From Anadara kagoshimensis (lineage: Eukaryota > Mollusca > Bivalvia > Arcoida > Arcidae), in the NCBI GenBank assembly GCA_021292105.1, contig CM037864.1, positions 43,679,816-43,743,815 of the forward strand: a stretch of DNA of 64,000 nucleotides, given 5' to 3'. Shown piece by piece: positions 1 through 59,600 of the stretch. The notes below the pieces were generated by a model. It was not told the origin of the DNA and searched no databases. It saw only the letters and a list, made by a program, of their open reading frames with translations. Both the position numbers and the translations under genes were made by a program. The stretch's first letter is position 1; every line of letters starts with the position of its first letter.

Positions 1-464
1 CAATTTTCATCTACATGTATTGCCTTTTTGTTTATATAGAGGATAATTAATAGTGAAGTTTGCAAATGAACTGTATTTTGTAAAATGAAGTGATCAAATC
101 AATATTTTACGAGGTGGCGCAGCAATCGGGTGAAAAATATGCTTTCTCACTTCACGAGAATGTAACTTGTCCATACTATAATTGATTTGAAGTGATTCAG
201 GATTTGATATTTAAGAGGGAATGTTTTTGAAAGTATTGATGGATATTATTATAGCGTTAATCCAACTTCTGGTCTTGATTTGGAGCTTTCAGTTAAAAAT
301 TCTATTTTCTAAATATCCTACATGTTAAAATCTTTAGATCCTCAAAAACTAAAGTATACCCCTCATACAATGTATTTCCTTAGCTCTATTTGGTTTAATA
401 TAGTTTGGTCCTTTGAATATTTTTCAGCCCTTTGAAGATATTTTAATTTCACAATTTTGGTCCA

Positions 465-510
465 AGCACTACTAATGAGGAATTGCATTCCAAAACAGCC
501 GTCTAGTGCT
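465..510 (+). ncRNA. hammerhead ribozyme-like motif (core mutated)
   Basis: Same architecture as the copy at 945-990. Stem I AGCACTA/TAGTGCT (465-471, 504-510) is perfect, stem II GGAAT/ATTCC is intact, and the cleavage triplet is GTC. The core reads CTAATGA instead of CTGATGA and AAAA instead of GAAA, so self-cleavage is probably lost. It is embedded in a repeat of about 170 bp (365-530). Confidence 0.55.
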
Positions 511-639
511 GTAAAATTAAAACTGGTATATGTAATTATGAAATATCGAATGTTTATACAAAGCACATTTAATGATGAAACGGGAACATTGTCAGAGAAA
601 TAGTTTCATATTTCTGAACATCTATGTTAAAAAATTTCA

Positions 640-905: not shown

Positions 906-944
906 TGATTAAGTAATTACATATTATACCAGTTTTAATTTTAC

Positions 945-990
945 AGCACTAAACGGCCGTTTCGGAATACAATTCCTCATCAGTAGTGCT
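945..990 (-). ncRNA. hammerhead ribozyme-like motif (intact core)
   Basis: Read on the minus strand: stem I strand AGCACTA (990-984), core CTGATGA (983-977), stem II GGAAT/ATTCC around a three-base loop (976-964), core GAAA (963-960), minimal palindromic stem III CGGCCG (959-954), then T, cleavage base T, and stem I partner TAGTGCT (951-945). All catalytic-core positions of the hammerhead family are present and stem I pairs over 7 of 7 bases. The predicted cut falls between 952 and 951. The very short stem III resembles metazoan retroelement hammerheads, which often work as dimers. Activity is inferred. Confidence 0.72.
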
Positions 991-1359
991 TCGATTAGAA
1001 TCTTAGATAAGAAAACGCCAAGACAAAACATTAGTATAAAACTAGTAGCTTAGGATTAAGTCAAAGAATGTATAACATGAATCAACTGAGATGTAATTAT
1101 GAACATGCAATACACATATGTAGTAGTGTGTCTCATGCAACAATTGCAGATTTTGTTTCTGTTACATTTTAAAAGTTTCATCAGGAAAGTGAGACCTGGG
1201 GATAGTAGCATTGGCAAACTTGATTTAAAATTGTGTATTTGATATATTCCGTAAATATGAAATAGAAACAACTGTATCTAGAAGGACGCTAACTTTTGTG
1301 CATGAATATATGCGTAAATTATTGTATCAATAAATGGTTAAGTTTTTTTTTTCTTTCAG

Positions 1360-1620: not shown

Positions 1621-4600
1621 GTAAGTACATAGTCAAATAAGCCTACGTCGTAGAAAAAATTCAAATAAATAAATTAAAGAGAATTAAGAATTTAGTACAA
1701 AAAACGTAAAATTAAAGTCACATAAAATTTTACTTTTGACAGCAAAGCAAGCTGCTTACAAATAAATTGTATAAGTAGACTTATCAAAGGCTCTCAAAAA
1801 ATTTAATGGCCGTCATTACAATGTTAATATGTTTGATATATTTGTATTCAAAATTGTCATGTTTTAGTATGTTTGCGTTTACTTTCCTTTGGGAATGTGA
1901 TTTGGAAATGAATTAGTATGTTAGTTTTTACTTGCTTTGGGAGTGTATTTCCATAGCTCAATTTGGTAAAATATATTTTGGCCCTTTGGTAATCTTTTCA
2001 ACACCTTGAAAACAATTTTTATTTTATAATTTTTCTCCAGGCTTTACTGATGAGGAATTGTATTCCTAAACGACCGTCTAGTGTTGTAAAATTAATACTG
2101 GCATACTATTAGACATGAATTGGTATGTTTGTTATTTACACTGCTCTGGAAATGTAATCTGGACATGGATTGGTTTGGTTATTTTTTACTTTGATTTTGG
2201 AGTGTGATTTAGACATGTATCGGTATGGTTATCTTTAGCAGCACACAATAATCATAATATTGAATCAGATGCCAGTAATACAATGTAAAAGAAAACAGAT
2301 GTTCTGCCAAAGCGTCTTCTTGGTAATAACTAATACATCCATAGCATAGAAAACTATTACATTTGTATGAATGGAAAAGAAATGAGCAGCAAACTTAAAT
2401 AGTCATAAAATAGGAAAAAGAATCTGTTCAACATTACAAAACTATATGTATATAATATATTACAACATCCTTTTACCAAGACTTATGAATTAGTTTTATC
2501 AATAATTCAAACGAATGCGTGTCGGATTATAATGAATTTGATTAAGAGTTTTGATTGATAATTAATTTTTAAATGTTCATTTGGAAATGCATGTACTTTT
2601 GTGGTGGTTCAAAAAGAATATTTAGAATCTATATGGACACAAGGGGATAACAATTTATACCAATTTATGTCAACACAGGCACACGAAGCTTTAATTTTTA
2701 TTTAAGCTCAAATTTAAGAAGAATACATGTAATTATAGAGCATTGAACTTTGCAAATGTAAGAATTATACTAAATGGGGGCCTACCATTATTTGCAAGAC
2801 GGGGTACAAAATGATAAAAAACAACATGGATCTCTTGAACGTTACAAATAGAAATTGGATTTCCGAATGTTTTATCATTTCACATAGGTACGTTAATAAT
2901 ATTGAACATGTTATATTCTACAGATGGAAAATGTGCTAGAGATGTATCAGAGGAGACGATTTATTGGCGAGTTTGTAATCCGGTATGTAAAATCATCAGT
3001 CTTAAAGCAGCACTTGTATCTGAACTGACGTATTTCCAACGGTTTAGGAGATTAAATTTCTGTGTTAAGAGGATTTGGATTCTTTAAAGCTATTTGATTT
3101 TGATAATTTCTGATTGGTTCGGTTGTAGATACAAGTTTGTAAAATCTTATTAAAAAATCAACCAAAATCACCACACATCATTAGTCAATCACACAAACAA
3201 CCCAAAAGACGAGGAAGGGCATAAGTTTAACAAACATTGCCATTCAATCGTCAAACTAGTGTCCATAGTCAAAGCTAAACAGGAGGTTTTTATCCTTCCA
3301 GAACATCCGGTCTTACTTCCCTGGTACACGTTTACGTGTTAAACCTAACTTGTCAGTTTCAAAGTTTTAACTTTGCTTCTAGATTCGATTTGCACATGGA
3401 TCAGTATGTTTGTTTTTTATACTTCACTCGCTTCTCAGAACAGTAAATTACAAATTGCTATAGAATCATTATTAGCTTACGACTTAGAGGTTTTCTGTCT
3501 CAGAATGTGTTCAGATTACAGAAAAAAAACATAATAATATTTTTTTATTATGCTTACACAATTGCTGCTCTGTCAGGCTAGTAAGCTAGGACCTAATGAT
3601 GGAATGCACTAGGATACATTGATTTTTTGTGATCAAGTTGAATAAAGATGGAAAGCTATTTAATTACATTTGAGTTGAGTTGGGCAATGATTTTTAACTT
3701 CCAAGTCACAAATATTTTAATTATATCGAGACGTCACCAGTTATAGGCAAGCTTGCAGAAAAGGAGGCTGTGCTCTATGGGCCTTTCCCGGCACCACAAT
3801 TTTAATAATTTTTTGAAGGGGAAATGTCTTTGATATGTTACCGAACACTTTGCCAATTATACATATCAAAAAAAATCCATTGCGCTGATGACATTATATA
3901 GCAGGGTTCTTTACCGGCCATGCCTATCGTAACACGGAACCTCGATTATTTTCAGTTCCCCTCCAAAAGAATCGTGACTTTCATTTAGTAATGCTGAGTG
4001 TTTGACAAAAGAACAGTCACTGCGCACTTTCAAGTCTTAGGTTAGACCCGGTCGGAGTTTGAACCTATGACCTCTCACTGATCGTAGGAGAAAGCACTCA
4101 ACCTACTGAGCTGCCGCAGTGGTACGTTTTAATTACATTTGACAATGCGCAATAAACATTTATGAATGAGAAAAACAAACAAGACAAGAAAAAATAAACA
4201 CAAGTATTGGGATAATTGATTTTAAAGGTTTGAAGAACTAACTCTAGTATTGCATATTATTGTCCTACTGTGTATTTATCTTCTTTATTTTAGTCAATAC
4301 CATTCCATAAACCCATTGGTCAGCCATTAACTGGACGCAAGATTGTAATTGAGGGGATACTGAAGACTGTTGGGTCAGTTTAATTCTATCTTTTAACGTA
4401 ATCCCGTAATAAATTCATTTGGATCATAAATACCGTGTTCAATTCTATTAAGGACACTACACCTACTTCATTCTGGTTTCCAAATCATCGAATTACCACA
4501 AACATACCTACAATCCAATAAAACTCGAGTGTCTTAATGTATCCCGTGGAGAAAACTACTAACAGATACTCCAAGCTAAACAAATAAATAAAATATACAT

Positions 4601-6861
4601 GTCCATGTTTAAACGACAGTCTAAATATGATGCCACTGAGCTTAAGGTATCCTGGGAAAAACTCCGACAGCAGATATATCTACCCAGTAAAAATCAAAGA
4701 ACAAATGCTCCAAGTTTAAATGAGAGCTAAATTATATAGATGACTCATATACACGGTTTTTCTGGGGAAAACTTTAATATAGTAAGTTGGACGTTGCGGA
4801 GCCAAATTTTCTCTTTATTTATTAATGTTTTATGTATTTATTTATTTTCACAGAAACTTCGCGGTTAATTTCTACTCCGATTTAAGCAACTACGGATTTA
4901 ATCTTCACTTTGACCTATCAACATATCAAAAAACCGTAAAAACTGCTATAAAAATCAATACAGTGTGGAAAGACAGTATAGTACATTACCAGGGTACTGG
5001 TGGTCCAGCTATTGACTCGCTTTTCTGTCTTGAAGTTCTCGTCACCACAGAGACATACAAGGTAAATGAAACACTTTAAAACTACTGATTTTATAGCTCA
5101 ACCGATTCAAAAATGAAAATGATTGTATTGTATGTCTAATTTTTATAATCTTTTTTTAAAATGAATATTGCAAACAATATCTTAAATAAATCAAAATTCA
5201 TTTAACATTCGTATCAAAAACATAACAACTACATTTATTACATTTTTCACGTTTCTGTTAAATTTTGAGCATTCGTGGACTTAACATGAAGATAGTTTTG
5301 TCCTTTTTGTGTGATTGTATTGATAGCATTTATCTTCATGAACGTAGGCAAGTTACAGTTTTTGGCATAAAACAAACTAGGACGCTAAAATGTACAGTGT
5401 CACTAACTTTATCCTGCATATTTCTCCATTTTACTTAATTAATCAACATCCATTTGCAAAAGAAATATAATAACTAACATTTGTTTTTGCTGTAAAGACA
5501 AAACAGTAATAATGCAAAGTGAATGCTTTGAACACTGGAAAATAAAGTTGCGTACGTAAACTTTCACAAAGAAAGTAAGGCTGGGTGCTGCGAACTGGTA
5601 ACAACTTTCTGCTTAACTAGCTAAGCTCTTCATGCGTGTCATCAAAATTAAGAATGTCAGGAAAAAGAAATTATGGGGCGTCAAATATATACTTTAAAAG
5701 TCTACGCATGCAATATCCTAACAAATATTTTCCTTTCCAATTCTTAAGATTAAAAAAGAAAAAATATATTAATTCAAAGCTAAATTGATTTCTTACTTCC
5801 ACTTAAACTTAAAATGACAAAACCATATACTGTAAATCACTTAATTTTCGCGAGCACTTTATTTTCGCGATATTCGCGACTCGGTAACAATTCGCGAAAA
5901 TTAAGTGTCCTGAAATTAAAGTGATTTTTGATAATGTTAAATCGAAGTGACATAATATATAGCAAATAAATTTAATTAGGGGTTACCTTTGGCGAAATCG
6001 CGAAAATTTCATGTCGCGAAATAGGTTTTGTTATGGATTCGCGAAAAAATAGTGCCGCGAAATTAAAGTGATTTACAGTATTAATACTTGTAATAATTCA
6101 ATAAAATACGTCAAAAATGTTCTTTTTGTTCTTTTCATATGACCTGTTGTTGAGAAAAAAAAGAAAGATATGTTTGAAAACTTGTATTTTAATGCAGTCT
6201 AGAAATCCAAACTGCAACTAAAACATTACTTCTTAATTAATAAATCAAATAATTTGACTACAAATGTCGAAATATTTTAAAATATCAAATTTAATATCAA
6301 TTTTGTAAAAAGCATTTATGCTTTCGTGATAAAAATAGTGATGAATAACTAAGAAAGACCATACCTTATAAAGATAAAGAAAAAGTATTGGGCATAGACA
6401 CTTACCAGTTTGAAGTGAAATTAAAAATTTTATGCATATTTTTTAAATAATATTTTCGTTAAAAAACTCACGTTGTGTTAAGGTCAACTTGTAATTAAAC
6501 TTTGACACTACCAATAAATATTCATTTCTGTAAACTGTGGCTACAATGGGGTTTAAGTATTTATGGAAATGGTTTAAATTCTGTTACATTCTATTAAAAC
6601 CTGTTGGATAAGTTAAGTCAACCATTTTAATGTAGGCAGACAGACGATGAACAGCATAATACGCTCAAATAATATGTGCTTTATGAGATTTACTGAAAAT
6701 TAAACTTCAATTTTGAACATTCTTGTTAATTTTAGGTAACATTCAACAACGAATATATGCTGGGAAGAAATGTTACAAACAACTTCGAAATATATGACAA
6801 GCTTGTAATATATGCCACAAACAGTTTTATTCTGTACGAAGTTTCAGTTATAGTAAGCTAA
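1360..6861 (+). CDS. PAN/apple-like plus galectin-domain protein (5 exons, 5' incomplete)
   Basis: Five coding exons join in frame: 1360-1620, 2924-2982, 4294-4373, 4854-5061 and 6736-6861 (stop TAA). Every junction has AG/GT sites and compatible phases (1, 0, 2, 0). The first exon gives a cysteine-rich module (YCALKCHVDTNC, then KICQGHRQCF) resembling a PAN/apple fold. Exons 3-5 read as a galectin-type carbohydrate-recognition domain: IPFHKPIGQPLTGRKIVIEG, FAVNFYSD, LHFDLSTYQ, NTVWKDS, FCLEVLVTTETYKV, and the final strand YDKLVIYATNSFILYEVSVI. Galectins bind beta-galactosides. Here the usual HxNPR motif is reduced to HFD, although the tryptophan is kept, so sugar specificity may differ or be lost. 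The cysteine-rich module suggests secretion. No signal-peptide exon was found upstream, so the start may lie outside the window or in an unrecognised exon. AATAAA at 6917-6922 could serve polyadenylation. The galectin call is firm; PAN is likely. Confidence 0.72.
2040..2085 (+). ncRNA. hammerhead ribozyme-like motif (decayed)
   Basis: CTGATGA (2047-2053), stem II GGAAT/ATTCC (2054-2066), TAAA instead of GAAA, CGACCG, then GTC. Stem I pairs poorly. The flanks (about 1960-2110) match the other copies of the repeat. It sits in intron 1 of the galectin-domain gene. Confidence 0.5.
2924..2982 (+). CDS. exon: linker of the PAN-galectin protein
   Basis: This is a 59-bp exon between TTCTACAG and GTATGT. 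It encodes DGKCARDVSEETIYWRVCNP, with two cysteines that may close the preceding module. Phase 1 in, phase 0 out, matching both neighbours. Confidence 0.65.
3230..3425 (+). repeat. dispersed repeat family A, copy in a galectin-gene intron
   Basis: Shares AAACAGGAGG, ACTTCCCTGGT, ACGTGTTAAACCTAACTTG and CACATGGATCAGTATG with the other family A copies. Confidence 0.55.
3665..4122 (-). mobile_element. tRNA-headed SINE, family 1
   Basis: The minus strand begins with a tRNA-like head: CTGCGGCAGCTCAGTAGGT (A box like), then GGTTCAAACTCCGACC (B box like). After it comes a body ending near the GAGTTGAGT tail. Further copies lie at 29279-29601, 34892-35240 and 44558-44801. It sits in an intron of the galectin-domain gene. 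Confidence 0.65.
4294..4373 (+). CDS. exon: first strands of the galectin domain
   Basis: An 80-bp exon with acceptor TTATTTTAG and donor GTCAGT. It encodes SIPFHKPIGQPLTGRKIV and on to ILKTVG, the typical opening strands of a galectin domain. Ends in phase 2. Confidence 0.68.
4854..5061 (+). CDS. exon: core of the galectin domain
   Basis: A 208-bp exon with acceptor TTTTCACAG and donor GTAAAT. It holds the ligand-binding strands (LHFDLSTYQ ... NTVWKDS ... FCLEVLVTTETYK). Of the canonical ligand contacts, the His and Trp are visible, while the Asn and Arg are not. Confidence 0.75.
5565..5655 (-). repeat. dispersed repeat family A, fragment
   Basis: A reverse-orientation fragment (AAGTAAGGCTGGGTGCT ... 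CTAGCTAAGC ... GCGTGTCATCAAAATT) in the last intron of the galectin-domain gene. Confidence 0.4.
5828..6080. mobile_element. TA-flanked MITE with CTGTAAATCAC terminal repeats
   Basis: The terminal inverted repeat CTGTAAATCACTT...AAGTGATTTACAG is bounded by TA on both sides, the target of Tc1/mariner-type insertion. The interior is rich in TTTCGCGA motifs and has no reading frame. Related elements lie at 22323-22501 and 54801-55008. Confidence 0.7.
6736..6861 (+). CDS. exon: last galectin strands and stop
   Basis: The acceptor is TTAATTTTAG before 6736. The exon encodes VTFNNEYMLGRNVTNN and the closing strands, then TAA at 6859-6861. It contains an N-glycosylation sequon (NVT), consistent with a secreted route. 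Confidence 0.7.
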   Translation, partial: VTFNNEYMLGRNVTNNFEIYDKLVIYATNSFILYEVSVIVS

Positions 6862-16834: not shown

Positions 16835-17200
16835 AACACCGATTCGAGTTCAAATCACAATCCCAAAGCACAGTAAAGACTGACAAATTAGGTTAAACAT
16901 GTGAACTGTAACCAGAAAAGTCAGGCCGTATGTACCAGCAGTGTAAGCACCTTCTGTTTCGTTAGCTACACTCGTCACGTGTGTAATCAAAATTGAGCGT
17001 GAAAGAAACAGTTAAAAATGGGATGTAGGATTACACACGTGGCGGGTGTAGCTAGCTAAACAGGGATGCTTACCCTTCCGGAGCACCCGGCCTCACTTCC
17101 CTGGTGGAAGTTCACGTCTCTAACCTAACTTGTCAGTTCCAAAGTGTTTACTTTGCTTCTGGATTGTGATTCGGACATGGATTAGTATGTTTGTTTTTTT
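16835..17200. repeat. two family A copies head to head (inverted pair)
   Basis: The left copy (16835-17000, reverse) and right copy (17022-17195, forward) share CTAGCTACACTCGTCACGT / ACGTGGCGGGTGTAGCTAGCT, TTAGGTTAAACATGTGAACT and AGTTCACGTCTCTAACCTAA. Together they can form a long hairpin with a loop of about 20 bp. Confidence 0.7.
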
Positions 17201-21340: not shown

Positions 21341-22207
21341 ATGGGATCGTTTGGTGGACATGCTCTTCCAGGTTCATTTTTCCTCGTATTTGGAGTATGG
21401 TGGACCATTCAGATATTTATCCAATACTACTCGGGTTTAAAACATAATATCAAGTTTAAATCATCGGGGATGTTTCCTTGTTCGTGTTTTTGTGGAAGGA
21501 TAAAAAATTGGCCAATCCAGCCATGTTTGGTTATATTTTGCACATTTGTTGGTTTGTCTTTGGAGATTTACACGGGAACATCACATGGTAAGTTTGACGC
21601 GCCTGGAAACGCTCAGCATGCTACTATGTTCTTTTTCTTTGGATTAACAGCGCTCATAAATATACTCGCCTACTTTAAGGTCTCTATGCCAAATAACCTG
21701 GATTATATTATGGGCGCCATTGCTTTCACCGTTGAATGGGTTCTGTTTAGATTCCATCTTCATGGAAGAACGCCACTTGATGTTCTCTTACACACCTTGT
21801 TGATGTATGTGATAGGGGCAAACATATTATCTGTTTTTATAGAACTGAAATACCGAGACCAAGTGTTAGCACCTCTGTTTAGAAGTTACATGGTTTTTCT
21901 ACAAGGAACCTGGTTTTGGCAAGTTGGATTCATTTTGTACAATCCTAATCCAGACGCTGAGAAATGGGACCAAGAGAGTCATCGTCAGATGATGATTGCT
22001 ACAATGTATTTCGCATGGCATCTTGGAATTGTTTTCCTGATTATGCTGATAATTAATTGTGTTGTTGCAGCTTATTACAATAAACTACTACACAGAAAGG
22101 ACGACAGAATAGAAATGGAAAGCTTGATAAAGTCCGACAAAAACGGATATACATGTGTGCCTGTAGCTGATAGTGATGATGATTTTGAGAAAGCTAGTAC
22201 TTCATAA
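21341..22207 (+). CDS. TMEM45-like (DUF716) multipass membrane protein, paralogue 1
   Basis: An intronless coding region of 288 codons. It begins MGSFGGHALPGSFFLVFGVW, close to the MGNFKGHALPG start of vertebrate TMEM45A/B. About seven hydrophobic segments follow. Family landmarks visible: QHATMFFFFG (about residue 92), FRFHLHGRTPLDVLLHTLL (about 140), FLQGTWFWQVGFILYNP (about 186) and YFAWH (about 226), ending in an acidic Asp/Glu/Ser tail. Its length matches the family's usual 270-300. The biochemical role of TMEM45 proteins is poorly defined; they are placed in endomembranes. An intron acceptor (TTATTTCAG, 21296-21304) precedes the ATG, so a leader exon lies upstream. By eye it shares about two thirds of residues with the protein at 30196-31071. 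Start choice follows the conserved N-terminus. Confidence 0.9.
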   Translation: MGSFGGHALPGSFFLVFGVWWTIQIFIQYYSGLKHNIKFKSSGMFPCSCFCGRIKNWPIQPCLVIFCTFVGLSLEIYTGTSHGKFDAPGNAQHATMFFFFGLTALINILAYFKVSMPNNLDYIMGAIAFTVEWVLFRFHLHGRTPLDVLLHTLLMYVIGANILSVFIELKYRDQVLAPLFRSYMVFLQGTWFWQVGFILYNPNPDAEKWDQESHRQMMIATMYFAWHLGIVFLIMLIINCVVAAYYNKLLHRKDDRIEMESLIKSDKNGYTCVPVADSDDDFEKASTS

Positions 22208-23109: not shown

Positions 23110-23280
23110 GTAATGACATACTATACCAATTTTAAATTTACAACACTAGACGGACGTTTTAGAATACAATTCCTCATTAGTAATGCTTGGACCAAAATAA
23201 TGAAGCCAATTTTTTCAAGATGTTGAAAAGAAACATAAAAGACCAAAATATATTTTACCAAATTTAGCTAAGGAAATAAG
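23110..23280 (-). repeat. hammerhead-bearing repeat, fourth copy
   Basis: In reverse this matches 365-530: CCTTA GCTAAATTTGG, AATATATTTTGGTC, AAAATTGG and the ribozyme-like fold, in the same order. Confidence 0.55.
23142..23187 (-). ncRNA. hammerhead ribozyme-like motif (decayed)
   Basis: On the minus strand: AGCATTA, CTAATGA, a stem II helix with its last pair mutated, AAAA, CGTCCG, T C, TAGTGTT. It belongs to a repeat copy at about 23110-23280 whose remainder matches the copy at 365-530 in reverse. Confidence 0.5.
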
Positions 23281-25660: not shown

Positions 25661-25906
25661 TTCGTTTATGCGTACTTTAAAGTTTACAATACTAGTACTA
25701 ATCAATTGTTCAATCCAAAAGTTTTAACCCATCGCGGAACAGACGGACGGACACACAATGAAATCGGACAGATTTACATAATAACTCGTGACGGTGTACG
25801 ATAGGTACAAAATGGTAAACAATGTATATAAGGAAGCTGAAAACGTGCCGTAAACAATGACTGAAACAACCAAGAAAAAACTTAAACAGAAGTGAACACT
25901 CGCCGT

Positions 25907-26852
25907 AGGCAATAGCTAAAAAAGCTTAGAACAAACCAGAGCACAGCTGGAAAGCTGGCGTAGGCAATAGCTAAAATAGCTTAGAACAAACCAGAGCACA
26001 GCTGGAAACCTGGCGTAGGCAATAGCTAAAATAGCTTAGAACAAACCAGAACACAACTGGAAACCTGTCGTAGGCAATAGCTAAAATAGCTTAGAACAAA
26101 CCAGAGCACAACTGGAAACCTGTCGTAGGCAATAGCTAACATAGCTTAGAACAAACCAGAGCACAACTGGAAAGCTGTCGTAGGCAATAGCTAAAATAGC
26201 TTAGAACAAACCAGAGCACAGCTGGAAAGCTGGCGTAGGCAATAGCTAAAATAGCTTAGAACAAACCAGAGCACAACTGGAAACCTGTCGTAGGCAATAG
26301 CTAAAATAGCTTAGAACAAACCAGAGCACAACTGGAAACCTGTCGTAGGCAATAGCTAAAAAAGCTTAGAACAAACCAGAGCACAGCTGGAAAGCTGGCG
26401 TAGGCAATAGCTAAAATAGCTTAGAACAAACCAGAGCAAAACTGGAAACCTGTCGTAGGCAATAGCTAAAATAGCTTAGAACAAACCAGAGCACAGCTGG
26501 AAACCTGTCGTAGGCAATAGCTAAAATAGCTTAGAGCAAACCAGAGCACAGCTGGAAAGCTGGCGTAGGCAATAGCTAAAATAGCTTAGAACAAACCAGA
26601 GCACAGCTGGAAAGCTGGCGTAGGCAATAGCTAAAATAACTTAGAACAAACCAGAGCACAACTGGAAACCTGTCGTAGGCAATAGCTAAAATAGCTTAGA
26701 ACAAACCAGAGCACAGCTGGAAACCTGGCGTAGGCAATAGCTAAAAAAGCTTAGAACAAACCAGAGCACAGCTGGAAAGCTGGCGTAGGCAATAGCTAAA
26801 AAAGCTTAGAACAAACCAGAGCACAGCTGGAAACCTGTCGTAGGCAATAGCT
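25907..26852. repeat. 55-bp tandem satellite, about 17 copies
   Basis: The unit begins TAGGCAATAGCTAAAATAGC and continues AACAAACCAGAGCACA(A/G)CTGG to AAACCTG(T/G)CG. The period is exactly 55 bp (for example 26071 to 26126). Units differ at a few linked sites, for example AACTGGAAACCTGTC versus GCTGGAAAGCTGGC, giving two main variants that alternate irregularly. No reading frame spans it. Confidence 0.95.
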
Positions 26853-30195: not shown

Positions 30196-31071
30196 ATGGG
30201 GACTTTCGCCGGACACGCTCTCCCTGGAACATTTTTCCTAATATTCGGAGTGTGGTGGACTATACAAATTTTTATACAGTACTATTCAAGTTTAAAACAC
30301 AATGTAAGATTTACGTCTTCATTAACATTTCCATGTAATTGTGGAAGATTTAAAAATGTGCCTATACAGCCTTGTTTGATTATATTTTTCACAGCTGTTG
30401 GATTTTTCTTGGAGATATACACGGGGACCACAAATGGACATTTCAGTGCACCCGGGAACGCTCACCATGCCACTATGTATTTCTTCTTTGGAGTTATGGC
30501 CGTTATTAATTTAATGGCCCATTTTGAGGTCAATATGCCAAAGGACATAGAATATGCCATGGCAGTTATTGCATTTTTCGTGGAATGGATCCTGTTCAAA
30601 TTCCATCTGTATGACAGAAGCCCGCTTGATGTTCTTGTGCACACGTTATTGAATTACGTCGTTGCTGCGAACATTGTATCTATTCTAGTTGAAATCAAGT
30701 ATCGTCACCAAGTCTTAGCACCACTATTTAGGGCTTACTTGGTTTTCCTACAAGGTACATGGTTCTGGGCCGTCGGTATTATTCTATATAATCCAAACCC
30801 AAATGCAGAAAAATGGGACGAAGAAGACAACGAGCAGCTGATGATAGCCACGATGTTTTTCGCATGGCATACTGTGATTGTTTTTCTCATCATGCTGGGT
30901 ATCAATTCTATTGTGTCTGTCATACACAGTAAGTTGCTATACACAGAGGATCGGTACATTGAATTGGAAGGTGTAATGAAAGAAGAAGTTAACGGATACA
31001 CAAGTATCCCTGTTCATGATACTGCCATTCCTGATGGTGATGTCGACGATTTTGAAAGACTAACCAACTGA
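30196..31071 (+). CDS. TMEM45-like (DUF716) multipass membrane protein, paralogue 2
   Basis: An intronless coding region of 291 codons. It begins MGTFAGHALPGTFFLIFGVW and shows the same landmarks as paralogue 1: HHATMYFFFG, FKFHLYDRSPLDVLVHTLL, FLQGTWFWAVGIILYNP and FFAWH. The cytosolic tail ends in Asp/Glu-rich residues. Two residues are missing in the cysteine-rich first loop compared with paralogue 1 (PCNC--GRF versus PCSCFCGRI). Same strand and about 8 kb apart, so it is a tandem duplicate that has since diverged. The membrane topology is clear; the substrate or partner is unknown for the family. Confidence 0.9.
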   Translation: MGTFAGHALPGTFFLIFGVWWTIQIFIQYYSSLKHNVRFTSSLTFPCNCGRFKNVPIQPCLIIFFTAVGFFLEIYTGTTNGHFSAPGNAHHATMYFFFGVMAVINLMAHFEVNMPKDIEYAMAVIAFFVEWILFKFHLYDRSPLDVLVHTLLNYVVAANIVSILVEIKYRHQVLAPLFRAYLVFLQGTWFWAVGIILYNPNPNAEKWDEEDNEQLMIATMFFAWHTVIVFLIMLGINSIVSVIHSKLLYTEDRYIELEGVMKEEVNGYTSIPVHDTAIPDGDVDDFERLTN

Positions 31072-46400: not shown

Positions 46401-49400
46401 TAGAATAAAAAGTATATACAAATTGAAAAACAGTTTTTTCACCTATATTATACTGAACATCAAATAAAGACAGTTTCAAATAAAAAGTCATGTTTACTTA
46501 AAAAGAGAATATGAAAATTAAAAACATACATGATATAAATTAACACAATTCGAACCAAAGGATTTGTTAGACAGAGTTTTAGTTTACACATATAACTTTA
46601 ACAAACAATATCAAAAGTGCAGTAAAACTTTGATTTATTGCCACCATTTGTTCAGTCAAATTTGACACTTTAATAGGGGTTGGCTATAAATTGAGGGAGG
46701 CTTCTAAGATAAACCCAGATGAAAAAGATTTTTGGATTTCTAAATAGAATGACAATTAACAAGGTGGAACAAGTATAGAGTTGTATTTAAAAAAAGTTTT
46801 CTATAGATCAGATGATGTTTGTATTGTTGCTTAACATGTCAGCAACAATTTTTCAGATATTCACGACGAGAGCAAGTTTATTTAAGAATTGAATTGCACT
46901 TTTTACGTTGTTATCGGGGTGTTACAACGTGAAAATTATCACAAATTGTGTAAAACCGCGTAGCGTAGCGCAGCGCAGCGCTTTTACGCATAATTTGTGA
47001 TAATTTTCACGTTGTTACACCCGATAACAACGTAAAAAGTGCAATTCAATTCTTATAATTACAAACCCAAAATTTAACATTTTTTAAAGCTGACCAACAT
47101 TTCTGAACTGATCAGCTGATTTTCAGAAAATCGACGTTACAAGGCTGAACTGCGTAGTGATACAATAAATGACATCTTTATGAAACGATAAAAGCTGAAA
47201 TAGTTTTGAATTTATATATTTTTATTCATTTTTTAGTTATTTTCAGTCAACATATAAATTATGTTACATTTTAATTCATTGACAAAAAGGGATTATATTA
47301 TGTCTCGCAATCATTAAAACAAACAACACTTTGTACAACGTCATACGTGACGGCCAAACGTTTGTAGGACAGGCGTGTTTACATTTTGATTTTTTACCCA
47401 TAACATAAGAAAAACTTTATTGGTTGAATGAACAGTGTGTTAAACAAACCCCGAAATCAACTATTGACATGGAATTAATGTTTTCTTGGATGATTCAATG
47501 TTTAACCACCTATGGAATGGATGCGAGATGAGGGATTCTGTCACCGGTGGTAGCTGTTTGGCTGATCAGGGACATTTTGATAAGGTAAACAAGCGGTACG
47601 GGTGAACATTAGACTTGAATATAGTATGCTATCAATTTTAATAAATTATTATTGGCAGGCCTACCACTGTCATTATCATCAAGATCCAATTCAGAATCAA
47701 CCATCTGACATATCTGCACACTGGCATTGCATTCTTCAAAATATTTATCCTGATCCCCGGCTATACATTGTCTGGGGGAAATAAAATGTCTTTGCTTTCA
47801 AAAGGATGCGTATGTGATGAATTTCAAACAAAACACCCCGCACTGAGGTTTGGCATCCGAGAATAACATGGTGCGTGTCCGATATTGCTTATACTTAGTA
47901 GCCTATAGACACATAAAGTCCTGAATGACGATAAAATGTCGATTTTGAAAAATATTTCATAAATATACAATCATAAATGTAAATTATTAAAAATATCGGT
48001 GAAAATTAATCAGAACATGTTTGAAATAATTTTTCAAATTTGAATTTATTAAAAAAAATCGAAGTATTTTAATGTTTCCATGTGAAATCGTTCCCGACCT
48101 CCCCGTTTGTTTACAATCTTAAAATGGCTGTTCCGAGACGGGTAATCCCCGAAACAGGCCCAAAGTAGTTCCGGTAGAAAACGTTGTTATTGGAAAATAA
48201 CACCGTGTTTTTTGCAAGACGACAACCAATGAAAATGCTCTAAATTGTGTAACAACGTGAAGTTTGTAATTATTAAGGATTAATCTAAGAACATGTTTGT
48301 ATATGTGTGTCTTATAGTCTGCCTTGTACTAGTGCATATCAAGGGCTGCTTTAGGTGCTAGTCCAGTGTCAGTACACTGTAGACAAGCACTCTACTCCCA
48401 AGAGTAACTTTATCCTAGCATAGGGTGAACCAGTTGATACTCTGTCCTCTAATACTGAAAGCCAGTCGAGAAAGCAATAACTAAAATTTTAAAGTCTTAT
48501 ATATGACCCGGCCAGGGTTTGATTCTATGACCTCCTGCTCTCAAGGAGACGGTCTACAACTGGGTAACCCAGGCGGTAAATGTAGTTAAGTTGAGATAGG
48601 TTCTCAGTTAACTCTGGGTTTTCCTGTCACGGGTTCTACTGTACAATGATCTACACAATTAGTTTACCTGATGTCAGTGGTATATGTTGATATCTCTAAC
48701 ACAGACACATCACTTATATTGGGACAATTAGCTAAAACAATTGTCTTTAATCTAGGGCAGTTCTTAACCACGTATCTCATACAGTTGTCTTTTATCTGTT
48801 AATAAAATTAAATAAAATTCAATAAAATTTAAATAAAATAATAAAATTAATTCACATAGAATATTTACAGAAATATACATTTACTCATTTGTACTTTGAA
48901 ACTGAAAAATGGTAAAATTATTTTACAAAAAGTTAAGTAAGAGAAAGCAAGTAAGAATTATTTAAGGATGAAATTAATGTTTTCAAGAGAGCAAAATTTT
49001 TTTTCAATAGCAAATAGCATTCCATGGATGTCGAAAAGGGTTTCTTGTTTTCCAGCCATCTAGAAGTTCAAATGTCTGAGTAAAATCCTGTTGTGACAAG
49101 TGGCTTTATTCTGTCTCTCATCACTGTGCCAATTTGTTACTTATTCCTGCACATACAGACTAAAGTAAAACTTTTGTATACTCTTGTATTTTAGCAAATA
49201 TCATTTATGATATAGTTGTAAAGAAGCTGTTTGTGAAATTAATATGTATATTCTCTGTAACTTACATTTTTACATCCTCTGAGATCTAAGGTTTCCACTT
49301 TACCGAGACTGTTTGATAGCTGTGTTATACATGAATCTGTCATCTGTAAAAACAAGATAATAATATTAGATAAAATTAAACAGAAACATCATGGATTTAT

Positions 49401-52400: not shown

Positions 52401-55400
52401 CTACAAGATTATTTGAACATAATTGGTTAAATGTACAGCATTTTTCATCACATTTGATTTTTTTCAACCATTCATAATGAAATACATGCACTCCTATTAA
52501 AGACCTTATTACATCAAAATAGAAAGTAACAAAATTTTGGAGTAATATTAACTTTATATTGGAGTAATATTAACTTTATATTGGAGTAATATTACTTTAT
52601 ATTGGAGTAATATTAACTTTATATTGGAGTAATATTAACTTTATATTGGAGTAATATTAACTTTATATTGGAGCAATATTAACTTTATATTGGAGTAATA
52701 TTAACTTTATATTATATTAACTTTATATTTGAGTAATATTAACTTTATATTGGAGTAATATTACTTTATATTGGAGTAATATTAACTTTATATTGGAGTA
52801 ATATTACTTTATATTGGAGTAATATTAACTTTATATTTGAGCAATATTAACTTTATATTGGAGTAATATTACTTTATATTGGAGTAATATTACTTTATAT
52901 TGGAGTAATATTACTTTATATTGGAGTAATATTACTTTATATTGGAGTAATATTAACTTTATATTGGAGTAATATTAACTTTATATTATATTAACTTTAT
53001 ATTTGAGTAATATTACTTTATATTGGAGTAATATTAACTTTATATTGGAGTAATATTAACTTTATATTATATTAACTTTATATTTGAGTAATATTAACTT
53101 TATATTGGAGTAATATTAACTTTATATTGGAGTAATATTAACTTTATATTGGAGTAATATTAACTTTATATTGGAGTAATATTAACTTTATATTGGAGTA
53201 ATATTAACTTTATATTATATTAACTTTATATTTGAGTAATATTAACTTTATATTATATTAACTTAATATTGGAGTAATATTACTTTATATTTGAGCAATA
53301 TTGACTTTATATTGGAGTAATATTAACTTTATATTGGAGTAATATTACTTTATATTGGAGTAATATTACTTTATATTTGAGTAATATTAACTTTATATTA
53401 TATTAACTTTATATTGGAGTAATATTACTTTATATTGGAGTAATATTAACTTTATATTGGAGTAATATTAACTTTATATTGGAGTAATATTAACTTTATA
53501 TTTGAGTAATATTAACTTTATATTATATTAACTTTATATTGGAGTAATATTAACTTTATATTATATTAACTTTATATTTGAGTAATATTAACTTTATATT
53601 TGAGTAATATTAACTTTATATTGGAGTAATATTAACTTTATATTGGAGTAATATTAACGTAATATTAACTTTATATTGGAGTAATATTACTTTATATTGG
53701 AGTAATATTAACTTTATATTGGAGTATTATTACTTTATATTGGAGTAATATTAACTTTATATTATATTAACTTTATATTTGAGTAATATTAACTTTATAT
53801 TGGAGTAATATTAACTTTATATTGGAGTAATATTAACTTTATATTGGAGTAATATTAACTTTATATTGGAGTAATATTAACTTTATATTGGAGTAATATT
53901 ACTTTATATTGGAGTAATATTAACTTTATATTGGAGTAATATTAACTTTATATTGGAGTAATATTAACTTTATATTGGAGTAATATTAACTTTATATCAA
54001 TGTCAATTTCACTTTGTGGAGAAGTGTTAAACAGTACACACATACATTTTAGTTGTGTAACAAGTCATATATGTGAATGTGAAGTGAAATGTTATCTTGT
54101 TATAAAGTTCCCAAAATCTATTTTGTCTTGTTTCTGTCTTTTAGTTGTAAGTTAGTGAATATTTTTGATTGCATTGCTTACTGCAAAATTATGAAAACAA
54201 AAACATACCCTGAGATATTCAGAACATTCACGAAAGAGTTCCCTTAAACCCCTGGCAGTAATATTTTCCCCATGACACTGTATAAGGGCAAGACTAACTG
54301 GATGCCGTTTACCAATCATCACTAAAGATTCATCATCTAAATTCCTTTTCTTTTTAACTGTGATGTATTTCCCTAAATAAAAAAACAGGTAAAGAAAATT
54401 TCAACACATCATTGTTTTGGCAAATATTAATTCAAATTAGTTTAACCTAAACATATGGAACTGTAAAGATATAATTTATAGCTATTTCAGTAAGCGACAG
54501 TTTTTTTAGTAAATAAAGGAAACTGCACATGTATGAAGTGAACATGAAATTAAACTTGTTGGGCTAATTATGCATTAATTGTTCAAAATGTCAAATTCAT
54601 ATATTTTTCCATACCGAAAAAAAAAGAAAAATTAATTTCATTTCTATATCACTAAACAGATTATGAAAACCAAATGGTCAGTTCAAGCTAAATAATGATG
54701 TATTTTGGTTTAATAAAAAATGGCTTATTTTCGACTTATAATAGCATTTGACTTATCCTGAAATTTGAGATATATGAGTTCAAGTTTATGACAGTTCATT
54801 TACTGTAAACCAAATTTTATTTGCAGATATTAACTTTCGCGATTCATTTATCAAAACCATTTCGTGACCATAATGGATTTTAGCTGAATATTTGGTATAA
54901 ATAAAACCATTTTTGAAACAAATTTGTGAGGATTAACTTTTGTGAGTATTTTTTCCTCACGAAACACGCGGAAGTTAATCGCACACGGATAAAAGTTGGT
55001 TTACAGTAAACATACTACAATCTAGTAAAAACCAGATAAACTTACATAATGATAAGTCCATGACTAATCTGTAGAACGTTTTACAAACTTGAGCACATTT
55101 AGCGAGATCTGACTGAGATAGGTATGACAATATATGTAGAAAGATCTCATCTGGAAAACATAGCCACATGGATAACTCTCCATCTCTTATTCTGGGTGTC
55201 TGAAATGTATAAACATCATATTTACATACCAGTGTGTAGAACGAGTCACCATTAGCTGAATAAAAAACCTTAGGGTAATCCCTTGAGCATCATTTTCTTA
55301 AAATATCCAAGTTATCATGTACTCAATGACTTTTTTTCTTTCATTAATCCATTAATTTATTAATAAAAATTGCTAATTGTCTAAAGTGGCTTAAAGCCAA

Positions 55401-56623: not shown

Positions 56624-59600
56624 AGAGAATTTTCTTCCTGGCACTGAGAACTTCATTCACCTCGAAATCTTTAACAAAAACAATGAAGAAAACATGGAAA
56701 AGCAACTTTCAAAACATTCTGAAAACTCAAGTATGTGTAAAGACATACAATATTTTCTCAATCAAAATGGCTCATACATACCTGGTATCTGCACTTGCAG
56801 GCCTGTTGTTGAGCTGTTTCTTCTTGGGTACAGGTTTACGTTCTGATGATGTTCCAGAAATGTCCTCCTGAAGATTATCATTACTTCCCCTTACAAATCT
56901 GTTTCTACTGGCACTAGAGGGTCTTCCTCTTGAAGGCTGACCTCTAATACTTGACTTTGTGCTTAGTTCCCTCTGATTATATGAGCCCCAAGCTATGCTA
57001 GATCTTTCCCAGTGTCTCTGATAACCTGCTGATTCAATAGATTCTCTGACTATACTTCTGGCATTATTATTGCTTGGTCTTTTTCCTCGACCATTTCCAC
57101 TGCTTGGTCGTTTTGGTTTAGGTGTGTTGATTTCTGCCATCACTTGAGCTAAAAATGGCTGCTGCTCTTCATTATCTACTCCTTCCTGAGAGTCTGCAGC
57201 CATTGTTATTGATTCCTCTGGAGGATCAAAGAATTCATTTAAATCATTAGTGTCAGTTGACGAGTCTAGAAGTTGTCGATTTCGCTGTTCATTGATTTCA
57301 TTCTCTTCATCACTACTATTGACGAGATTTAGAATAGGAACGATTGGTTCAGATCTACCAGAACTTCTTCTCTCAGAACTAGGAAAAACTTCAATATCTA
57401 CTGGTACATTTTTCTTTAACTTTGATTTTTTCTTTGAATATGATGGTTTTGTGTTACTGAGAACAGGGGGTTCTACAGCATTTGGATCACATTGATTTTG
57501 AGTTTGAAGTTCTTGTGTACTTTGATGTGAATTTGAATTGGCTTGAACAAAATCTGGGGCACTTGAATTCGTTAGTACTTGGACATAATTTTGGACACTT
57601 GAGCATGACTGTGTCTGATCAAAATTTTGAGTTGTATGAGAATTTTTCTGATTTTGAACATCAATCTGAGAAGCGAATGCTTCCAAACCATTTGACTGTC
57701 CTGCATGTGTATTGTCTTCACCATCATTTTCTTCTTCATCGCCAGTAGAAGTATCTTTTCCATCCTTCATATTTATAGCCTGTTTCTTCCGATTGAAATA
57801 GGCTTTAATAAACCCTTTAATGACAGGATCTGATATATTCTCACAAATCTCAGTCACTTCCTTTTCAGTTCTACAGTAATCCATGTCTTCACTAGAAGGT
57901 CGTCCACTGTCTCTGCTGTCCGATTTATTAGGTGATGCTTTACCTTTGTAAACCTCATCATGAACTGGAGATATTTCACCGTCTCTCTCAGAAACAATCT
58001 GAGGCACTATACCAGGATCACCCTCTATTTCTTTTTCAACAAATGTTACATTTTTGATATTTTCTATTTCAACATTCTGGTTTTCAGTTATGCACCTCTT
58101 AAGTTTTCCGTTTTTACCCTTTTTCATTAAAATTGGATTAACACCTATCAACACGTCACCACAGTCAGCACACCATGACATGTACGGTTATTTACTTCTC
58201 CACATTCTGGACAAACAATCACTAATTTACCATTTGATTTACTACTATTGTCCATATTTTCTTTGGAGGCTTTCTGACCCTCTCCTTTTATGAATGACAG
58301 ATCAATACCGAGCTTTTCCTCACGTTCTGTTACTCCACCAGCCTTTATACTAGTAGCTGATGTGAATTCTGTATTCACTAGTGTTTCTTCTCCATCATTA
58401 TCAACAGGTGGTTTTATTGGAGTTGTTTCTTTGTGTGGTGTTGAAGCCTCAGTTTCCTCATTAAGATTCTGGTTATGGTCTCGTCTATAGAGGTTTTCCA
58501 GAGAAGTGAAATATCTGTCTATGGAAGCTTTGGCAAACTTTCTCTGTTTCTGGAGTACTTCATCTTCTTCTTGTTGCAATCTCCTACAACAGAAAATTAA
58601 ATGAAGTCATACTAACGTACTACATAAGTCAGTGGAGCTATCCTCTTTTAAACCAGTAATTCTGACTTATAAGATTTTGCTAGTGTGAGTAGAATGGTGA
58701 GAAGAATAGTGTATTGGTCAAGAACCTGTCACTTATATGAAGTCAGAAGTTCTACCTGTTCCAAGATGGTGGAGGAAAGTGACTGTGCAGAAAAAAAAAT
58801 ACAAATTTAAAAAAGTCTAGTCAGACTGCTGTCATTTTAAAATTTGCTAGTCACAGGCATTATCAAACTTGTGACCAACAGACTGTTCAATAAATGCTCT
58901 TTTATATTCTATAATCCTTTATGTATCTTTGTAAATTTAACAAAGATTTCATAATGCTTAAGTTGCCAAGCTCCAACTATGGTCCTGATGAAAGGGCCTA
59001 GTTTGACAAGAAAAGGTCAGCATTGGGTCACAACTTTTTATGTACAGGAAAGTGATTCATGTCATACATGTATAATGCATGGAAAACATCTGAGTCACAA
59101 TGAATCTCACCTTTGTTCATGGAATTGTCTTATTCCTTCTATATGCCTTTGAGAAGGATTTTTAGAATCTTGATCAACAATAAGCTTGTCTTTACTATCT
59201 CTCCTCCCATCATGCTCTTCTACAGGAACATCCTGTTTCAGGTCTCCCTTTCCATCATGTACATTTGTAATATCAAGCCTGTTATTCCTCCTTGGTGAGG
59301 ATTCATCCTTCTTTCGTGCTGGTGGATGAGGAATCATAATCTGTCCATTTGTCTCCAAAACTGCAAAACAGAAATAAAATACATTTAAAAGTAAACTGTA
59401 AGAAATATTGTGTTACCCATCAAAACAATTTAAGCTTGTGTATGTGAAAGTCGTCCGACTTATCAGTCCACTAAACCCCTATTTTAATTTTTTTACTTTT
59501 TAGAGTCAAAAAATTAAAATGGGGGTTTAGTGGGCTGATTAGTCGGACTAATGTGAAAGATGCCAGGCTGTTCTAGACAGATAAAACCAGAAACTACAGT

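Follow-up and report, generated by a model that had tools for sequence, protein, structure and literature searches.

A predicted hammerhead ribozyme in a truncated retrozyme-like insert of Anadara kagoshimensis, and the common 3' end of its genomic copies

The closest described relatives of the repeat reported here are the retrozymes of mussels, in which some ~5,000 type I hammerheads lie in repeats of ~350-390 bp, with circular RNA (PMC7229834). The discussion of the same paper proposes Penelope-like elements (PLEs) as strong candidates for the mobilisation of retrozymes (PMC7229834). The parts that we examined of this and related papers contain, for retrozymes, no mention of a fixed 3' end, of scattered starts with passage across the cleavage site or of near-identical units within an array, nor, in the case of PMC7229834, the string 'truncat'. 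For PLEs, the enzyme of an anole element is reported to initiate reverse transcription inside the RNA, without homology to the cut DNA and with ATT preferred, and this internal start corresponds to a genomic 'tail' of 30-40 bp that is specific to PLEs (PMC11167929). Cleavage by the hammerhead (HHR) is dispensable for this enzyme in vitro, and the main template is the unprocessed RNA rather than a circle (PMC11167929).

We analysed a stretch of 64,000 nucleotides of the bivalve Anadara kagoshimensis (assembly GCA_021292105.1, contig CM037864.1, forward-strand positions 43,679,816 to 43,743,815), hereafter the window, and searched 1.115 Gb of genome in 36 contigs. Compared by description, the repeat family found here appears to fit the mussel retrozymes (PMC7229834): in common are the type I hammerhead, the tandem repetition of an AT-rich unit some hundreds of bp long and thousands of copies, and the family is likewise taken to be without LTRs. 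It differs in the length of its unit (~325-341 bp) and in occurring mostly as single truncated inserts.

The hammerhead at 945-990 and its copies in the window

Read on the minus strand, the copy that we call c2 has the sequence AGCACTA-CTGATGA-GGAAT/TGT/ATTCC-GAA-ACGGCCGT-T-TAGTGCT. An earlier note had claimed a hammerhead with an intact core at this place, together with 7/7 pairing in stem I, a stem II of 5 bp and a cut between 952 and 951; all of this is borne out on the minus strand, where every listed part is present (Table 1). The core criteria for type I hammerheads were taken from the parts of PMC3088659 used here, with mispairs adjoining the core disallowed, and require the bases C3 U4 G5 A6 N7 G8 A9 G12 A13 A14 A15.1 U16.1 H17. 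The copy c2 agrees with all of them, and the three other copies in the window, c1, c3 and c4, fail. Under a strict descriptor (stems I, II and III of at least 6, 4 and 2) as well as a looser one (3, 3 and 2), c2 is the sole match in the real window; 300 first-order Markov windows yielded 1 strict match and 10 looser matches.

Table 1. Positions and strands of the features, with remarks
Feature	Position	Strand	Remarks
c2 type I hammerhead, intact core	945..990	minus	from sequence, Rfam targeted search and descriptor
c2 stem I	990-984 with 951-945	minus	7/7 paired
c2 CTGATGA	983-977	minus	
c2 stem II	976-964	minus	5 bp
c2 GAA	963-961	minus	
c2 stem III	960-953	minus	
c2 H17	952	minus	cut predicted 952/951
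c2 insert, 5'-truncated retrozyme copy, ~80 bp	915..995	minus	3' end 37 nt beyond predicted cut
c1, truncated and older, spanning unit 137 round to 37	304..537	plus	core broken: G5A, G12A; hammerhead-like part 465-510 (472+)
c3, truncated and older, spanning unit 206 round to 31	1945..2109	plus	core broken: G12U; hammerhead-like part 2040-2085 (2047+)
c4, truncated and older, spanning unit 207 round to 37	23112..23278	minus	core broken: G5A, G12A; hammerhead-like part 23142-23187 (23180-)
PLE of locus L113 beside a partial inverted copy of its 3' end (positions in L113)	3990-4475; 529-1176 vs 4023-4660		

A covariance search with Rfam, which the earlier note had put forward as a check, gave a divided answer. 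Over the whole window no hammerhead appears at the gathering threshold, nor is there one among the 22 matches at E<=10. On the isolated 81-base stretch around c2, however, RF00163 (Hammerhead_1) scores 24.2 bits, with E 2.4e-4 against 4,227 families, in a targeted test for which the site was picked in advance and in which the short input makes the filters laxer. The copy is like RF00163 in its core, open stem I and short stem III, and the full-length model is matched; it differs in that its score lies under the gathering score of 34 bits. We conclude that c2 is, as judged from its sequence, a genuine type I hammerhead motif, for which cleavage is predicted. It lies on the strand opposite to that of a PAN-domain exon at 1299-1637.

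The earlier note had also claimed three further copies with core changes, and these are present at their sites, each with lost core bases: G12 is lost in c1, c3 and c4, and G5 in two of them (c1 and c4). In Rfam searches of their 81-base stretches, c3 scores 14.6 bits (E 0.38), and c1 and c4 have no match. As for the claim that stem I is kept or compensated in two copies, c1 and c4 both pair 7/7 (c4 with two wobbles; c3 pairs 6/7, with three wobbles and one mismatch), but the compensation amounts to one-sided wobble only. The shape is kept in 96.7% of 60 pair cells across the four window copies, with 0 two-sided compensatory changes in their stems. A model built from these four copies found no convincing fifth copy in the window, the next best match having E 0.41. 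For c1 and c4, a longer stem I helix was inspected by eye only and set aside as AT-rich.

The repeats around c1, c3 and c4 extend well beyond the ribozyme part. Their alike left edges had suggested a separate element of ~165 bp; this was rejected, since the genome shows these edges to be truncation points of a longer unit. The 5' edge of the c2 insert is uncertain by several bases (BLAST extends to 1002), and c4 is directly followed by an (ATG)n run. Copy c3 sits within a ~50-bp tandem repeat (1902-1947, 2109-2236) whose unit recurs at several sites elsewhere in the window. Copies of c1, c2 and c3 also occur together at locus L002 (G000:C8:43214235-43217375), inverted and ~465 kb away on the same chromosome; with an identity of 95% over 141 bases around c2, the window at ~300-2800 and L002 form a segmental duplication.

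The short stem III had been read as a retroelement mark of action as a dimer. The mark recurs, in that PLEs of this genome carry a palindromic stem III as well; dimer-only action is not supported. In the c2 monomer the active fold, at -7.8 kcal/mol, is predicted to be less stable than the minimum of -12.3 kcal/mol, and in the dimer it stands at -34.5 against a co-fold minimum of -36.5 kcal/mol. The dimer co-fold gain of 11.9 kcal/mol is matched or exceeded by 44/300 shuffled sequences, and we therefore reject dimer folding as functional proof. Across 159 copies, the stem III palindrome varies most at its centre, where the two middle bases show 16 and 15 changes, as against 1-9 at each of the other six.

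The carrier family, its insert ends and its arrays

The exact, intact 26-mer that runs from CTGATGA to GAAACG has 4,587 copies in the genome (2,326 + 2,261), and its reversed control has 0. Exact copies of three variants were also counted: 347 with G12, a CpG site, as A; 161 with the loop II G as A; and 27 with both G5 and G12 as A, the double change seen in c1 and c4. These 27 copies may represent either an amplified ribozyme-dead subfamily or independent decay. A query of 141 bases around c2 gave 1,437 candidates, of which the 40 scored places, including the window itself, are 94-100% identical, mostly over ~81 bases. The family of c2 is therefore young; c1, c3 and c4 are nonetheless old.

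The repeat unit is mostly ~325-341 bp long and is found as single 5'-truncated inserts and as head-to-tail arrays. Units cut from arrays measure 320-354 bp (337-340 in 40/52), ten units have a GC content of 0.33-0.35, and the longest ATG frame spans 18-66 aa across 52 units read as circles. Retrozymes are characterised by tandem units of 150-450 bp that contain one type I hammerhead apiece, by low GC and by the absence of a coding frame, and the element shows all of these; metazoan non-LTR retrozymes are further defined as lacking LTRs, a primer-binding site and a polypurine tract. In c2 the window holds a 5'-truncated insert of this high-copy element, whose unit of ~325-341 bp has one hammerhead. 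The family that carries the ribozyme, which the earlier note had left open, is by the anatomy of its unit and its 4,587 intact copies classed here as a metazoan non-LTR retrozyme; the claim of a dispersed retroelement repeat is upheld by thousands of genome copies as inserts and arrays. Searches of viral contigs and of genome contigs, and one of text with the sequence, found nothing.

Conservation of the core among genome copies had been named as a test of the motif. The core is intact in 45/48 ribozymes of the loci L055-L072, which were found via a stretch outside the ribozyme, and in 42/48 ribozymes of L002-L039, which were found by likeness to c2. Of the 133 intact copies (among 159), 114 have C at H17, 18 have U and 1 has A. 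The stems show no covariation, with 4 two-sided changes among 65 distinct family copies where shuffles give 6.4; the copies are young and offer little variation for such a test. Rfam lists no hammerhead at E<=1 on the array loci L009, L016, L034 and L036, which hold intact tandem copies and together comprise 9,004 bases. The Rfam model and its filters thus pass over this retrozyme family in longer scans, and more than 4,500 intact hammerheads of one family escape the thresholds.

We number the unit from the base that follows the predicted cut. In the first set of 71 chains, 13 were dropped (10 duplicate-locus rows and 3 running off the stretch), whereas the three inserts of L002 that duplicate c1-c3 were retained, as was a pair of alike inserts in L033. 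The 3' end lies at unit 31-41 in 55/58 kept chains, 33 of them ending exactly at 37; the exceptions are three old fragments that end at 243 or 339. Because the c2 query itself ends at unit 37, end counts from L002-L039 are biased, a bias from which L055-L072 and L073-L112 are free. At L055-L072 the main inserts end at unit 36-41 in 18/18 cases (16 if three duplicate loci are counted once), and two additional chains are short diverged fragments. The loci L073-L112 are the first 40 stretches along contig C1 that carry an intact 26-mer, with one place (L032) skipped and the likely duplicate pairs L087/L089, L090/L093 and L110/L111 kept; being chosen by the intact 26-mer, they are uninformative on core conservation. 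They hold 54 chains, 42 of which carry the intact 26-mer, and among these 42 the 3' end lies at 33-41 in 37, at 27 in two and at 325-339 in three. Their starts are spread over unit 1-319, and 37/42 inserts are shorter than 400 bp, the remaining 5/42 measuring at least 400 bp. From the end counts in all three samples it follows that nearly all inserts share a 3' end, vary at the 5' end and cross the cleavage site. Starts at the cut site were considered as a trace of cleavage and rejected, as only L062, L071 and L074 begin within ~2 nt of it and the choice of loci favours such starts.

At the junction, TGTAAT is followed by T in 44/49 cases, and the next base is A in 34/49. Target-site duplications, which in retrozymes exceed 4 bp if present, are weak (mean match P 0.026; matches of at least 6, P 0.13). 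Just beyond the common end lies a GC-rich stretch that folds in the unit RNA (z -2.1), with 3/200 shuffles as good.

Arrays reach ~11 units, and the longest read, L055, has 11 full units in 3,835 bp. Among 52 full units, differences average 0.50% within arrays (79 pairs, 55 of them from L055) versus 3.64% between arrays. The nearest unit belongs to the same array for 32.7/40 units, as compared with a mean of 2.2 and a maximum of 8.5 in 200 shuffles. Four of the 13 arrays (L009, L016, L024 and L034) differ internally by 2.4-3.8%. The mixture of 325- and 339-bp units reflects a difference of 14 nt between short direct repeats, of which slippage could be the source. The clonality of the arrays fits one circular template copied several times. 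Near-identical units within an array would also be expected from homogenisation in DNA, and the arrays might have formed there by unequal exchange, like a satellite, rather than via an RNA circle; we consider this unlikely, since the main inserts of L055-L072, single and multi-unit alike, all end at 36-41, and a DNA step is unneeded.

Penelope-like elements and the proposed route of copying

The genome contains at least 50 matches to GIY-YIG at E<=0.001 (248 candidates, 150 scored), and among 32 proteins scanned in the window (7 + 25, one frame twice) there is no gene for a reverse transcriptase (RT) or GIY-YIG. Our account of PLEs draws on one locus, L113, and on the 3' ends of six others, with RT sought in L113 alone. 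Locus L113 has a frame of 728 aa with RVT_1 and GIY-YIG. The frame looks intact, and the element adjoins a partial copy of its 3' end in inverted orientation (Table 1).

A hammerhead-like motif lies directly 3' of the frame in 7/8 PLE ends, of which L113 contributes two; at the L117 end it is absent under the PLE descriptor rule. The motif has CTGAAGA, a stem III palindrome AGTACT or AGCGCT, A at H17 and a stem I of 6-10 bp. In L114 it reads ATGAAGA, so that C3 is broken, and stem II is weak throughout, being barely present in L114, L115 and L118. The descriptor of the L113 motif, widened after the motif had been seen, matches 0/400 simulated sequences, and Rfam lists no hammerhead on L113. 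In one PLE subfamily, L114 and L118 diverge 42 nt beyond the cut. In the other, L113 minus diverges, by eye, at about 42 nt, and the similarity of L113 plus and L116 continues until about 75 nt beyond the cut, an apparent second end; (AT)n runs blur the ends of the L113/L116 subfamily, and alignments across these runs extend longer. The PLE ends thus match the retrozyme end position in the L114/L118 subfamily and partly in that of L113 and L116.

The two kinds of element are alike in several respects: PLEs as described (PMC11167929; PMC7761336) and the retrozyme both have a hammerhead near the insert end, an internal fixed 3' end and tandem copies, and the retrozyme inserts show the fixed internal 3' end just past the hammerhead by which PLEs are recognised. 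They differ in that the PLE has a frame with RT and GIY-YIG, whereas unit frames do not exceed 66 aa, and the PLE hammerheads are unlike that of the retrozyme at core base 7 and in stems II and III. The retrozyme unit and L113 share no notable sequence (best match 12 bases, E 0.2). Calculated from published numbers (PMC11167929), the anole PLE has its RT start about 85-92 nt beyond the cut, as against a putative start at 36-41 in the retrozyme. Since its unit lacks a long frame, the retrozyme would act like a passenger of PLEs and is not itself a PLE; PLEs may well be what mobilises it.

Taking these observations together, we hold it likely that c2 is a retrozyme insert with a working hammerhead, whose family moves by circle formation and an internal RT start supplied by PLEs. 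The hammerhead would fold in the transcript and cut between 952 and 951. At multi-unit loci two cuts would free a unit, and a host ligase would close the circle. A reverse transcriptase acting in trans, most likely from PLEs, would have a fixed start within the RNA, about 36-41 nt beyond the cut, at nicked AT-rich DNA, and the cDNA would run back through an uncut or religated hammerhead. An early stop would give 5' truncation, as in c2, and further rounds would give arrays. The copy c2 would then be a dead-end product that at most cleaves a transcript running through it; having a single ribozyme and lacking another cut site, it is unable to release a unit alone.

The insert pattern fits internal initiation of the Penelope type, with a template that is either circular or uncleaved. 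The copies may record such initiation on ribozyme RNA circles specifically, with arrays as circles copied repeatedly and a start signal common to the PLE, a proposition that in our judgement could equally be right or wrong. The shared signal is suggested by the PLEs of this genome, whose ends lie similarly far beyond their hammerheads, and the finding of hammerheads on PLEs makes copying of circles by PLEs slightly likelier and a purely non-PLE mechanism less likely. If true, the proposition would name the machinery and the template of retrozyme movement, which have hitherto only been proposed. A fixed start site, which can be read from thousands of inserts, makes testable the way in which non-coding circles with a ribozyme re-enter animal genomes, for it predicts where a PLE enzyme binds or starts and how junctions and arrays should look.

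LINE inserts usually have 5' truncation and a common 3' end. The pattern observed here resembles this, and the fixed end could be the 3' terminus of a linear transcript on which a LINE-type enzyme acted. Such an origin seems rather improbable to us, however, given that no long A run was seen at the insert junctions examined, that the arrays are mostly clonal and that PLEs here end at a similar distance. Alternatively, the repeats might derive from coding PLEs, as remnants of their untranslated ends (pseudo-LTRs), and not be a separate non-coding retrozyme, as the like position of PLE hammerheads relative to the insert end would allow. This we find highly doubtful, because complete units of ~339 bp stand head to tail with no coding sequence between them and because the PLE hammerheads, with their different base 7 and stems II and III, and L113 as a whole are dissimilar; as just 8 PLE ends of at most three kinds are at hand, another PLE may bear a retrozyme-like end. 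Finally, a chance look-alike in AT-rich DNA, to which the whole-window Rfam scans without a hammerhead and the broken cores of 3/4 window copies might point, is implausible in the extreme in view of the simulated windows, the targeted Rfam E-value and the thousands of intact copies.

Other features of the window

Three long, perfect-looking fold-back inverted repeats lie at 16945-17071, 46889-47047 and 59438-59559; they match miRNA precursor models below the cut-offs and look like inverted-repeat transposons. Two similar single-exon genes with a DUF716 domain, at 21341-22204 and 30196-31068, stand on the same strand 9 kb apart. The window also holds two tandem arrays, one at 25904-26852 with 17 copies of a 55-bp unit, and one at 52537-53997 with a 22/44-bp unit in 69 or 35 copies.
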